A stretch of DNA of 41,847 bases from Spirochaetales bacterium Spiro_04 (GTDB taxonomy: Bacteria; Spirochaetota; Spirochaetia; Sphaerochaetales; Sphaerochaetaceae): positions 1 to 41,847 of the forward strand of contig LVBF01000016.1 in NCBI GenBank assembly GCA_001604325.1. The letters run 5' to 3'. Made by a program: the position numbers and the translations under genes. The notes under the pieces are model-generated. The model was not told where the DNA came from. It searched no databases and was given only the letters and a program-made list of their open reading frames with translations. Positions 17,154 through 21,027 of this stretch are shown here, in pieces (positions within the stretch are counted from its first letter, which is position 1; the number at the start of each line of letters is the position of its first letter).

Positions 17154-18809
17154 ATGGCTACCAGTCCAAAACGCTCCTATCTGACCCTCTTCAGGGTCGC
17201 GATCAGCGCATTATTCATCGTAATCCTCATCCGGGTGGCCTTCTTGATGCTCACCAGTCCAAAATCCGCACGCCAATATGATGACCCCCAGGTCGCCGAA
17301 CGGGTGGAGCGCGGGACGATCCTCGACCGCAATGGACGAATCCTCGCCATCCAAACCCCGTACTGGGGGGTGTACTTCCACCTCAACGCCATCGACGACC
17401 TCGCCTTCGTCAGTGAGGTGGTCTCCCCGTTCGTACAGATGAGCGCGGATCAGATCATGGAGCGGGCCCGCGGCTATACCACCTACGCCCAGATCAAGGA
17501 GCGCATCGATGAGCAGACCGCCGAGGAGTTGAAGACGGCGTTGGCCAAGAACCGGTTGCAGAACCAGGTGACCATCGAAAAGCGGCAGGGGCGTACGTGG
17601 CCGGCCCACTTCCATGGGGTGCAGACCATCGGCTTCACCAACACCGCCGGCGAAGGCATCGAGGGTATCGAGCTCAGCCAAGAGCGCTATCTCAACCCCG
17701 TGCCCCAGGTCGGCGAGCGCCTCGTCACCTACGGCGATGAGATCACCCTCACCCTCGATCTGGACATCCAATATACCGTCGATGTGCAGCTGCAGGAGAT
17801 CGCCGAGGAGTGGGATCCCGAATGGAGTGCCGCCATCGTCCTCGATGCACAAAACGGCGACCTGCTCGCCGTAGGCAGCTGGCCGTGGTACGATGCCAAT
17901 CTCTTTGGTAAATCGACGAGTGAGGAGCGGAAGAACCATGCGGTGAACCAGCTCAGCGAGCCGGGGTCCGTCTTCAAGCTCTTCAGCCTCGCCTCAGTGC
18001 TCGAAGCGGGCGAGGCCGATACCTCCACCACCTTCTTATGCGACGGCAGCTATACCTTCAACGCCGGGGGATCGGCGGTGACCATCACCTGCTCCTCGCC
18101 GCACGGTGAGGTGGACTCTCGGACGATGATCAGCAAATCGTGCAACGGGGCGATCTCCCACTGGGCGCTCCAGACCGACCCGGCAAAATTCTTCGAGACG
18201 CTCTCGAACCTCGGCTTCACCTCCTCCTGGGACATCGACCTCCCCTCCCGGGCGCGTTCGATCATCGCCGATGTGGGAGCGTGGTCCCTCCGCAGCCAAC
18301 CGACGATCGCCTTCGGCCAGGAGCTGTTGACCACTGCCTTGCACCTGACGGTCGCCGCCACCGCACTCGGGCCCACCGGAGAACTGCTCACCCCCCACTT
18401 GATCCTCCGTCGCCGTAGCGGGGAAGATGGGACCCTGCTCTATGAGCGGGTACGTACCCCGGTCGCCCAGGTGCTCACTCCAGCGAACACCGCGATCATC
18501 CGGGAGGGGATGCGCCTCGCCACCGAAGAGGGGACGGGGACGCTGGCCAGGGTGGAGGGCTTCGCGGTCGGCGTCAAGACCGGCACCGCCCAGATCATGA
18601 ATCCGGAGACGGGCAGCTATGCCGACGGCGCCCTCTATGCGAGCGCGCTGGCCATCGTGCCCATCGATGAGCCACGCTATATCATCTATGTGGGGGCCCA
18701 TGATCCCAAAGGGTCGAATATCTGGGGGGCGAACATCGCCGCCCCCGCGATCAAAGAGATCATCAAGACACTGGCAAGTCAGGGAAAACTCATCGTCTCA
18801 GAGAAATGA
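17154..18809 (+). CDS. Class B penicillin-binding protein (FtsI/PBP2-like transpeptidase)
   Basis: 551 residues. A membrane anchor (about 13-33), a pedestal domain beginning with ERGTILDRNGRILA (53-66), and a transpeptidase domain with all three active motifs: SVFK (S272 nucleophile), SCN (329-331) and KTG (475-477, in VGVKTGTAQ). It cross-links peptidoglycan in the periplasm. The FtsI-like N-terminal motif and the absence of ftsI between ftsL and murF make it the likely septal enzyme; no PASTA domains are present. No ribosome-binding site precedes the ATG. It is convergent with the flhF-like gene (12-bp overlap). Published Sphaerochaeta genomes are reported to lack such proteins, so its intact state is notable. 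Confidence 0.88.
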   Translation: MATSPKRSYLTLFRVAISALFIVILIRVAFLMLTSPKSARQYDDPQVAERVERGTILDRNGRILAIQTPYWGVYFHLNAIDDLAFVSEVVSPFVQMSADQIMERARGYTTYAQIKERIDEQTAEELKTALAKNRLQNQVTIEKRQGRTWPAHFHGVQTIGFTNTAGEGIEGIELSQERYLNPVPQVGERLVTYGDEITLTLDLDIQYTVDVQLQEIAEEWDPEWSAAIVLDAQNGDLLAVGSWPWYDANLFGKSTSEERKNHAVNQLSEPGSVFKLFSLASVLEAGEADTSTTFLCDGSYTFNAGGSAVTITCSSPHGEVDSRTMISKSCNGAISHWALQTDPAKFFETLSNLGFTSSWDIDLPSRARSIIADVGAWSLRSQPTIAFGQELLTTALHLTVAATALGPTGELLTPHLILRRRSGEDGTLLYERVRTPVAQVLTPANTAIIREGMRLATEEGTGTLARVEGFAVGVKTGTAQIMNPETGSYADGALYASALAIVPIDEPRYIIYVGAHDPKGSNIWGANIAAPAIKEIIKTLASQGKLIVSEK

Positions 18810-19658
18810 GAGCGCCTCAAGATCGAGGGTGAAGCCGACAAGACGACTGAGCAGCGCCGATGAATCGGCAGCCCTCACCTCGCCTTCGTCATCGGCTGTG
18901 TAGGCGAAGGTGACCTTCGACTGCACCAGATACGCCAAGAGCGCTCCGATTTTCTCAGCCTTCTCAAGACCGGTCACCAGGAGGGCGTCGGCATCATCTC
19001 TCTCCAGCGCCGCCGCGTCAGTGACGAGCAGACGAGTCAACGCTTCCCCCTCGATGAGGGAGAGCATGGCATCGTCAGGGGCGAGGAGCACCACACGCTC
19101 ATAGCGCTCCAACGTCTCGCCCAACGCCTCGAATTCCGCTCTTCCCGTCGCATGGTAGAGCGGCAGCGAATAGAGGGCTGCAGCCTCGACGAGGGACGGT
19201 TCGTCAGATCCAAGGGTGAGGATCGCGACCTTCTTCCGCTCCTTGGCCCGATGATAGAGCGCCAGGCGGGGTGCCATCGCCGCCGCCCCCGCTCCCATCA
19301 AATGGACGAAGCGCCGATCGAGACCGGCGGTATAGTCGATGGAGGTGAACAGCTCTTCGATGAGGCGGACCTCGACCTCCGCCTGCTGCATCGTCTCGAT
19401 CGATGCCCACACGTCCGCTGAGGCGCAGAGACCGGCGGGGATGTCGTTTGCCTTCAGGATTTTCTCCCGATGCTCTTGGGGATCGAAGCGTACCTGCTTT
19501 GAGAGGTCCACCAGGTAGAAGGTGATCTCACAGCGCGCGGGACCCCGGGCGACCGGGATGTCGCGACGGGTATGGACACGCACCGCACTGCCCCACTTCT
19601 CTCGGGCGAGGCGCAGGGCGCTCTCATAGTCGTCACTCTCCAGGCGCAGGAACTCCAC
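18798..19658 (-). CDS. FlhF-like protein with degenerate GTPase motifs
   Basis: 286 residues. The N-terminus (FLRLESDDYESALRLAREKW) matches the start of FlhF, the SRP-type GTPase that positions flagella, and the C-terminal region resembles the end of the FlhF G domain (SKVTFAYTADDEGEVRAADS). All nucleotide-binding motifs are altered: the P-loop position (122-131) reads GAGAAAMAPR without the GKT, the DTAGR position reads APDDA (about 193-197), and TKLD reads TGLE (229-232). The frame is intact, and the GTG start has a perfect AGGAGG that overlaps the hslU stop, so it is expressed and probably maintained. I infer a pseudo-GTPase retained after loss of flagella, role unknown. Confidence 0.7.
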   Translation of the reverse strand: MEFLRLESDDYESALRLAREKWGSAVRVHTRRDIPVARGPARCEITFYLVDLSKQVRFDPQEHREKILKANDIPAGLCASADVWASIETMQQAEVEVRLIEELFTSIDYTAGLDRRFVHLMGAGAAAMAPRLALYHRAKERKKVAILTLGSDEPSLVEAAALYSLPLYHATGRAEFEALGETLERYERVVLLAPDDAMLSLIEGEALTRLLVTDAAALERDDADALLVTGLEKAEKIGALLAYLVQSKVTFAYTADDEGEVRAADSSALLSRLVGFTLDLEALSFL

Positions 19659-19668
19659 CCGTCACCTC

Positions 19669-21027
19669 CTAGAGGATGAAGCGGGAGAGGTCTTCATTCT
19701 TCATGATCTCCTCCAGTCGCTCATCGACGTATGATGATGTGATGGTGATCGTCTGTCCACTCAGCTCATCGGCGCTGAAGCTCAGCTCCTCAAGCAGCTT
19801 CTCCATGACGGTGAAGAGCCGGCGCGCACCGATGTTGTCCGTCGTTGCGTTCACCTCCCAGGCAATCTCACTGACGCGCCTGATCGCCCCATCCTCGAAG
19901 TTGATGGTGACTCCCTCGGTCGCCAAGAGCTCCCGGTACTGCATCGTGATGGCGTTCGCCGGCTCGGTGAGGATCCGGTAGAAGTCATCGGCCGTCAGCT
20001 CGTTGAGCTCGACACGGAGCGGGAAGCGCCCCTGCAGCTCGGGGATCAAATCACTGGGCTTGGAGACGTGGAAGGCGCCGCTGGCGATGAAGAGGATGTG
20101 GGTCGTGTCGATGATCCCCCACTTGGTGGAGACGCTGGTCCCTTCGACGATCGGCAGGATGTCGCGTTGCACCCCCTCACGGGAGACGTCGATGCCGCTC
20201 GAGGCGCCGCTCTTGGCGACCTTGTCGATCTCATCGATGAAGACGATGCCCATCTGCTCCACCCGCTCCTTGGCTTCGTCGATGGCTCGGTCGGTATCGA
20301 CGACCTTCTCCGTCTCCTCCTCGGTGAAGATCTCACGCGCACGGCGCACGGTCACCTTCCGATGGTGTCCCTTGCTGTTGCCGAAGATCGAGCCGAGGCT
20401 CTGCATCGCCTCCTGGAGCTCCTCCATGTTCGGTTGGCCCATCACCTCGATGCCCACCCGCTTTTGGCCCTGGACAGTGATCTCCACCTCACGTTCATCA
20501 AAAAACCCGTCCCTCAGCATCCGTCTGAAGCGCTCGCGCATTGAGTCGGCGCTCTCCTTGACCTGCGTGTCGGCGGAAGATTCGGGGTTCTGTGGCAAGA
20601 GGATATCGAGCAGGCGCTCCTCAACCCGTGCCTGGACCTTCTCCTTCTGGTACTCGGCGAGTTCACTCTTGACCTGCTGCACCGCGATGGACATCAGGTC
20701 ACGGATGATTGATTCGACGTCACGCCCGACGTATCCGACCTCGGTGTACTTGGTCGCCTCCACCTTGATGAAGGGGGCGTTGGCGAGGCGGGCGATCCGG
20801 CGGGCGATCTCGGTCTTGCCGACCCCCGTGGGCCCGATCATGATGATGTTCTTCGGCGAGACTTCGTCACGGATCTCCTCGGGCAACCGTTTGCGGCGCG
20901 TACGGTTGCGGATCGCCACCGCGATGGTCCGTTTGGCCTGGTCTTGCCCGATGATATACTTATCCAGCTCCTTGACGATTTCGGAGGGCTTGAGCTCGTC
21001 AAGCTTCCGGCTCTTCAGATATTCCAT
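19669..21027 (-). CDS. hslU: HslU, ATPase subunit of the HslUV protease
   Basis: 452 residues. KYIIGQDQAKRTIAVAIRNR starts the AAA+ domain, Walker A GPTGVGKT is at 65-72, and EVGYVGRDVESIIRDL and Walker B MGIVFIDEIDKVA follow. The I domain lies about 110-240, and the C-terminus ends in the short tail (LSRFIL) that inserts into HslV. It unfolds proteins and feeds them to HslV. It follows hslV by three bases and is followed by the flhF-like gene ten bases on. Confidence 0.97.
   Translation of the reverse strand: MEYLKSRKLDELKPSEIVKELDKYIIGQDQAKRTIAVAIRNRTRRKRLPEEIRDEVSPKNIIMIGPTGVGKTEIARRIARLANAPFIKVEATKYTEVGYVGRDVESIIRDLMSIAVQQVKSELAEYQKEKVQARVEERLLDILLPQNPESSADTQVKESADSMRERFRRMLRDGFFDEREVEITVQGQKRVGIEVMGQPNMEELQEAMQSLGSIFGNSKGHHRKVTVRRAREIFTEEETEKVVDTDRAIDEAKERVEQMGIVFIDEIDKVAKSGASSGIDVSREGVQRDILPIVEGTSVSTKWGIIDTTHILFIASGAFHVSKPSDLIPELQGRFPLRVELNELTADDFYRILTEPANAITMQYRELLATEGVTINFEDGAIRRVSEIAWEVNATTDNIGARRLFTVMEKLLEELSFSADELSGQTITITSSYVDERLEEIMKNEDLSRFIL

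Follow-up and report, generated by a model that had tools for sequence, protein, structure and literature searches.

The window analysed here, a stretch of 41,847 nucleotides from the contig LVBF01000016.1 of Spirochaetales bacterium Spiro_04, carries between 13214 and 25983 the gene order ftsZ-xerD-tauE-dprA-xerC-hslV-hslU-flhF, which faces pbp, a LysM/M23 peptidase gene and secA. The same order is common to much of the Sphaerochaetaceae, and it recurs without tauE in the genomes G038 and G051. We are concerned with the last gene of the series, the minus-strand frame at 18798-19658, whose product we call the window protein; together with its counterparts in genomes G004 and G007 it makes up what we call the window clade. 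An earlier note on this DNA had described the frame as intact and as preceded by a perfect AGGAGG overlapping the hslU stop, and we find the same: no stop interrupts the 286 codons, the hexamer overlaps the stop codon of hslU (19669-19671, minus strand), and the GTG start lies 10 nt past that stop (Table 1). The convergent neighbour is presumably a penicillin-binding-protein-like gene.

Table 1. The FlhF-derived gene of the window, its parts and its immediate neighbours
Feature	Position	Strand	Remark or basis
FlhF-derived gene	18798..19658	-	286 aa, GTG start
AGGAGG, ribosome-binding site, overlaps hslU stop codon	19665..19670	-	sequence
hslU, upstream neighbour of flhF	19669..21027	-	
B domain	19506..19658	-	residues 1-51; 75-82% identity in the window clade, its best-conserved stretch
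Linker and shortened N domain	19314..19505	-	residues 52-115
Degenerate SRP-type G domain	18909..19313	-	residues 116-250; fold predicted, motifs gone
Former P-loop (G1), GAGAAAMAPR	19266..19295	-	alignment; GxxGxGKTT in intact relatives
Former G3, APDDA	19068..19082	-	alignment; DTxG in intact relatives
Former G4, TGLE	18963..18974	-	alignment; TKLD in intact relatives
C-terminal tail, ends ...GFTLDLEALSFL	18801..18908	-	residues 251-286; second conserved part
Convergent gene, presumably penicillin-binding-protein-like	17154..18809	+	shares 12 nt with the 3' end of flhF

Taken alone, the window protein has no significant match in Pfam or NCBIfam, and neither TIGR03499 nor PF00448 is matched over its curated cut-off, whereas intact orthologues do match; the resemblance to FlhF was therefore demonstrated through the orthologues. 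Orthologues at the same locus are 55% (G004) and 44% (G007) identical to the window protein, and those from many genomes of the genus are 36-38% identical. For instance, the protein at L006, which scores 116 bits on Pfam SRP54, is 38% identical over residues 1-281, and the L100 orthologue scores 112 bits on TIGR03499, under the model cut-off of 174. A profile search, which had been proposed as a check, is thus blank for the window protein by itself, and it is the orthologue series that carries the link to FlhF. The locus is orthologous, the B-N-G layout can be aligned and synteny is shared; the gene is a true FlhF descendant, of solid origin, and its function we infer. The earlier note had also allowed that a second, normal flhF might explain this one as a simple paralogue. 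No such copy was found in the source genome (80.6% complete), where the SRP54 matches are Ffh and FtsY only.

The GTP-binding motifs were tabulated from an alignment of the collected FlhF proteins of the family and of its motile relatives. In the window protein, GAGAAA(MAPR) occupies the P-loop position of intact orthologues, LAPDDA stands in place of DTxG and TGLE in place of TKLD, and its SRP 'DxxR' box (now GSDEPSL) and closing 'DGQxVP' loop are replaced as well. GK[ST], DTxG and TKxD are all gone from G004 and G007 too, and by their G1, G3 and G4 motifs none of the three proteins would be counted as an FlhF. They are the only full-length proteins tabulated without GK[ST], and the replacement letters differ in each of the three MAGs, so that we reject a single assembly error as the cause. 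The claim that every GTP-binding motif has been lost consequently stands for the window protein, G004 and G007 but not for the family, most of whose members retain the motifs (G1, G3 and G4 together in about 45 of 65 full-length members). Another divergent protein, that of G161, is also without a recognisable P-loop; G011, G022 and G023 retain the P-loop and have lost DTxG, and in genus g41 DTxG is lost and TKxD has become TMCD. On the species tree, intact lineages separate the clade of G011, G022 and G023 from the window clade (fork SH-aLRT 94; the tree was built without G004, which was grouped with the window protein by sequence identity), and erosion of the GTPase was therefore likely independent in at least two subclades. 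As sister species carry an intact FlhF, the GTPase was lost later than the flagellum and in particular clades. Judging from its residues, the window protein is very unlikely to bind GTP, and with G1-G5 lost from its G domain the window-clade FlhF is very likely a pseudo-GTPase with a predicted NG-like fold.

In the motile sister lineages, twelve of which were found to have hslU and flhF together on a single contig and strand, some 20 kb separates the two genes, in the order hslU-[flgB, flgC, fliE, fliF, fliG ... flhA]-flhF-flhG. The genes between them were named where domains identified them, namely rod proteins of the FlgB and FlgC types, FliE, FliF and FliG, with FlhA and FlhF at the far end; the ParA/MinD-type protein after FlhF is taken as FlhG. 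In nearly all Sphaerochaetaceae loci examined, flhF instead comes directly after hslU (median gap 10 nt over 65 loci), and it does so likewise in G037, G038 and G051, which are without FlhA or flagellin. This leads us to regard flhF as the far end of the lost operon. The earlier suggestion of a remnant at an old flagellar junction is right in so far as hslU abuts flhF, but what remains is the distal end of the operon, with flhF, and not the flgB end. As to whether the genome has any flagellar genes, a question also raised at that stage, we find none of those sought: FlhA and FliG are each absent from all 139 family genomes, flagellin from all 36 family genomes searched, and no such partner of FlhF was found in the source genome, itself 80.6% complete. 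FlhG is also absent after flhF throughout the family, where the best matches reach only E about 1e-9, as compared to 1e-24 or better in most motile genomes and in G037 and G038. Among non-flagellates, flhG still adjoins flhF in these two only, and the flhF-flhG pair was seen in both flagellum-less genomes (G037, L092 4418-5305; G038, L093 5794-6657).

The non-flagellate lineages (Sphaerochaetaceae, G037, G038 and G051) group together as a single clade (SH-aLRT 100), so a single loss of the flgB...flhA block explains all of them and several independent losses are unneeded; on the tree there is a single flagellar loss. A 2025 preprint on spirochaete genomes also infers a single loss of motility in non-spiral spirochaetes, which it describes as retaining almost no motility genes, and its main text leaves FlhF unmentioned (PMC12236494). 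In G043 (L159), hslU and flhA are only about 7 kb apart, the FlhA match is in two pieces and no flagellin was found, which is possibly a flagellar operon in mid-decay or a frameshifted assembly.

An flhF orthologue follows hslU in 125 of the 139 family genomes (about 90%), 111 of them recognised by BLAST matches to the window protein, mostly over the B domain, and 14 added by position as divergent or missed copies (G033, G030, G034, G075, G077, G092, G106, G121, G145, G146, G151, G160, G161 and G162). Three further genomes have hslU with no FlhF-like gene after it (G063, L227; G065, L228; G080, L240), probable secondary losses which mean that the gene is not essential everywhere, and 11 were not assessable from their contigs. 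Close intact orthologues show dN/dS of 0.07-0.12, comparable to the neighbouring cell-wall genes of the same pair, and by domain the values are 0.06-0.08 for the G domain in every intact group and 0.05-0.19 for the B domain. Such constraint on the G domain, despite there being no flagellum and no FlhG, suggests that the GTPase of the intact orthologues is in use.

The window clade differs in where constraint lies, strongest on the G domain in intact orthologues and here on the B domain and C-terminal tail (the tail is 53-75% identical and the G domain 35-46%). Its whole-gene dN/dS is 0.27-0.37 (G domain 0.36, B domain 0.24), values that come from three sequences and are rough because synonymous sites are near saturation. 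Even at dS above 1, the frame is open in each of the three species. Simulated neutral drift over an equal synonymous distance brought amino-acid identity down to 11% and introduced about 8 stops, against an observed 55% and 0 stops, and neither the frame decay nor the neutral evolution of a pseudogene was found. The dN/dS comparison proposed in the earlier note thus gives a frame under selection. Across the family, flhF is retained by selection on its frame and is not merely left over.

Alternatively, FlhF might have been purposeless since the flagellum was lost and be decaying at varied speeds, with the window clade well advanced and due to lose the gene. We consider this unlikely: the G domains of intact orthologues are held at their low dN/dS across lineages all without flagella, three window-clade species keep open frames and a well-conserved B domain at such synonymous distances, and the gene persists in most of the family. 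There is nonetheless something to be said for slow decay, which would also give the relaxed constraint seen in the raised window-clade dN/dS, and which would accommodate the repeated loss of motifs in several subclades, the three genomes with nothing after hslU, and the remnants of genus g4, in which only the B domain survives.

The B domain is the sole part kept everywhere in the family orthologues. In genus g4 (G028, G135 and G136) it is all that remains after hslU, 52-60 aa as called, with 60 aa in two of the three and in G135 an open frame of about 80 aa without an obvious ATG start; a convergent gene appears to sit where the N-G part once was. The B-only loci L110, L188, L189, L241 and L242 all lie close to this convergent gene. 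Near-invariant positions of the family B domain are R27 (95%), R31 (94%), A18 (94%), D33 (80%) and H29 (74%), residues that are rare in the B domains of motile spirochaetes. Flagellar assembly in motile bacteria requires the B domain, which in Shewanella binds FliG, while polar localisation comes from the G domain (PMC12713375); in Vibrio, FlhF mutants in the GTPase motifs are no longer polar (PMC7226244). As there is no FliG in the family, the B domain must bind something else, if it has a partner at all. Alternatively, the window protein might be translated along with HslU and act on the adjacent HslUV protease as its adaptor or regulator, as the tight packing of hslU and flhF family-wide could suggest, down to 2 nt past the hslU stop for the B-only genes of G028 and G136. 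We regard such a role as improbable, since the operon deletion already explains the adjacency, the two genes stand 20 kb apart in motile relatives, and G063, G065 and G080 have hslU without flhF.

Structure prediction had also been proposed earlier, with an unrelated fold as the outcome that would speak against FlhF. A first model, for which the window protein was aligned with seven relatives (five of the eight rows being intact FlhF), reached pLDDT 84.7 and had FlhF 2px3 as its top PDB match (Z 18.4, 217 aligned, rmsd 2.8), with FtsY and Ffh structures at Z about 16-17. Because PDB matches within 1 Z were counted as tied, the fold supports an SRP-type NG domain, and it is the orthologues that assign the protein to FlhF. 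Since intact rows could steer this model, a control was built on the three degenerate proteins only; its pLDDT is lower, at 69.4, and FlhF is again the top match (E 2.2e-9). The SRP-type NG fold is thus that of a predicted model, not of a solved structure, and either alignment leads to FlhF. A fold of this type might suggest a place in the SRP or membrane-targeting pathway, with FtsY or Ffh as the partner of the NG domain. In heterodimers of SRP GTPases, however, the two subunits come together by way of bound GTP (PMC7226244), and all GTP motifs of the window protein are gone, which makes this reading very doubtful indeed. No PDB sequence was matched significantly by a profile built from the three degenerate proteins only, so that FlhF descent, unprovable by sequence alone, was established by orthologues and fold. 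That the window protein is unrelated to FlhF and resembles it at its ends by chance would suit this null result and the lack of a Pfam match, but it is scarcely credible, being refuted by the continuous orthologue series at one locus and at odds with FlhF as top structure match even from degenerate sequences only. The relatedness to FlhF claimed in the earlier note is accordingly borne out by orthologues, synteny and predicted fold.

The explanation we favour, and hold to be reasonably probable, is that flhF is the one end that survives from a lost flagellar superoperon, now a GTP-independent derivative whose B domain serves a non-flagellar partner. An ancestor of the Sphaerochaetaceae and nearby families lost the flgB...flhA block between hslU and flhF once and kept FlhF; comparison shows that FlhG was kept in two sister lineages and lost in the Sphaerochaetaceae. 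FlhF would then have taken a non-flagellar role in which, as we infer from how strongly purifying selection acts on the G domain, the GTPase was initially still used. In the window clade the G domain has lost G1-G5 and kept a predicted NG-like fold, with selection now holding the B domain and C-terminal tail, and a related genus has an all-B-domain version. We propose that the result may be a constitutive, GTP-independent adaptor, made together with HslU, whose B domain would bind the non-flagellar partner; a polar or septal site for the window protein is one possibility only. For the family as a whole, the balance tips slightly towards a conserved non-flagellar function of FlhF carried by the B domain, several lineages having dispensed with the GTPase, down to the B-only form. 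Spherical, non-swimming spirochaetes have kept an old flagellum-positioning gene, which in the window group probably has a non-flagellar job.

To our knowledge FlhF is known solely as a flagellar placement GTPase, and no account of FlhF in bacteria without flagella came up in a literature search that covered few subscription papers. The presence of FlhF in about 125 species of a family without FlhA or FliG, most with signs of selection, points to a role separable from the flagellum, and the natural series of intact GTPase, GTPase-dead and B-only forms would allow the binding of the B domain to be queried directly.

With regard to known systems, FtsY and Ffh share the predicted NG fold with the window protein but are not orthologous to it, and both are separately present in the source genome. 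The FlhF of motile spirochaetes (TIGR03499) has in common with the window protein the descent of its locus, the B-N-G layout, the predicted NG fold and a position downstream of hslU; the window protein differs in its length (286 aa, as compared to 381-457 aa in most motile forms), in its lack of G1-G5, in the B-domain signature R27, R31, H29, D33 and A18 that is typical of the family and atypical of motile forms, and in belonging to a genome without a flagellum, FlhA, FliG or FlhG. Closer to it are the intact orphan FlhF proteins of other Sphaerochaetaceae (for example L006, L018 and L023), which have the same locus and B-domain signature and again no flagellar genes found, but which, unlike the window protein, retain GKT, DTxG and TKLD together with a strongly constrained G domain. 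The B-only FlhF of genus g4 shares the locus after hslU, the B domain and the absence of GTPase function, and differs from the window protein in that the entire N-G part has been deleted.
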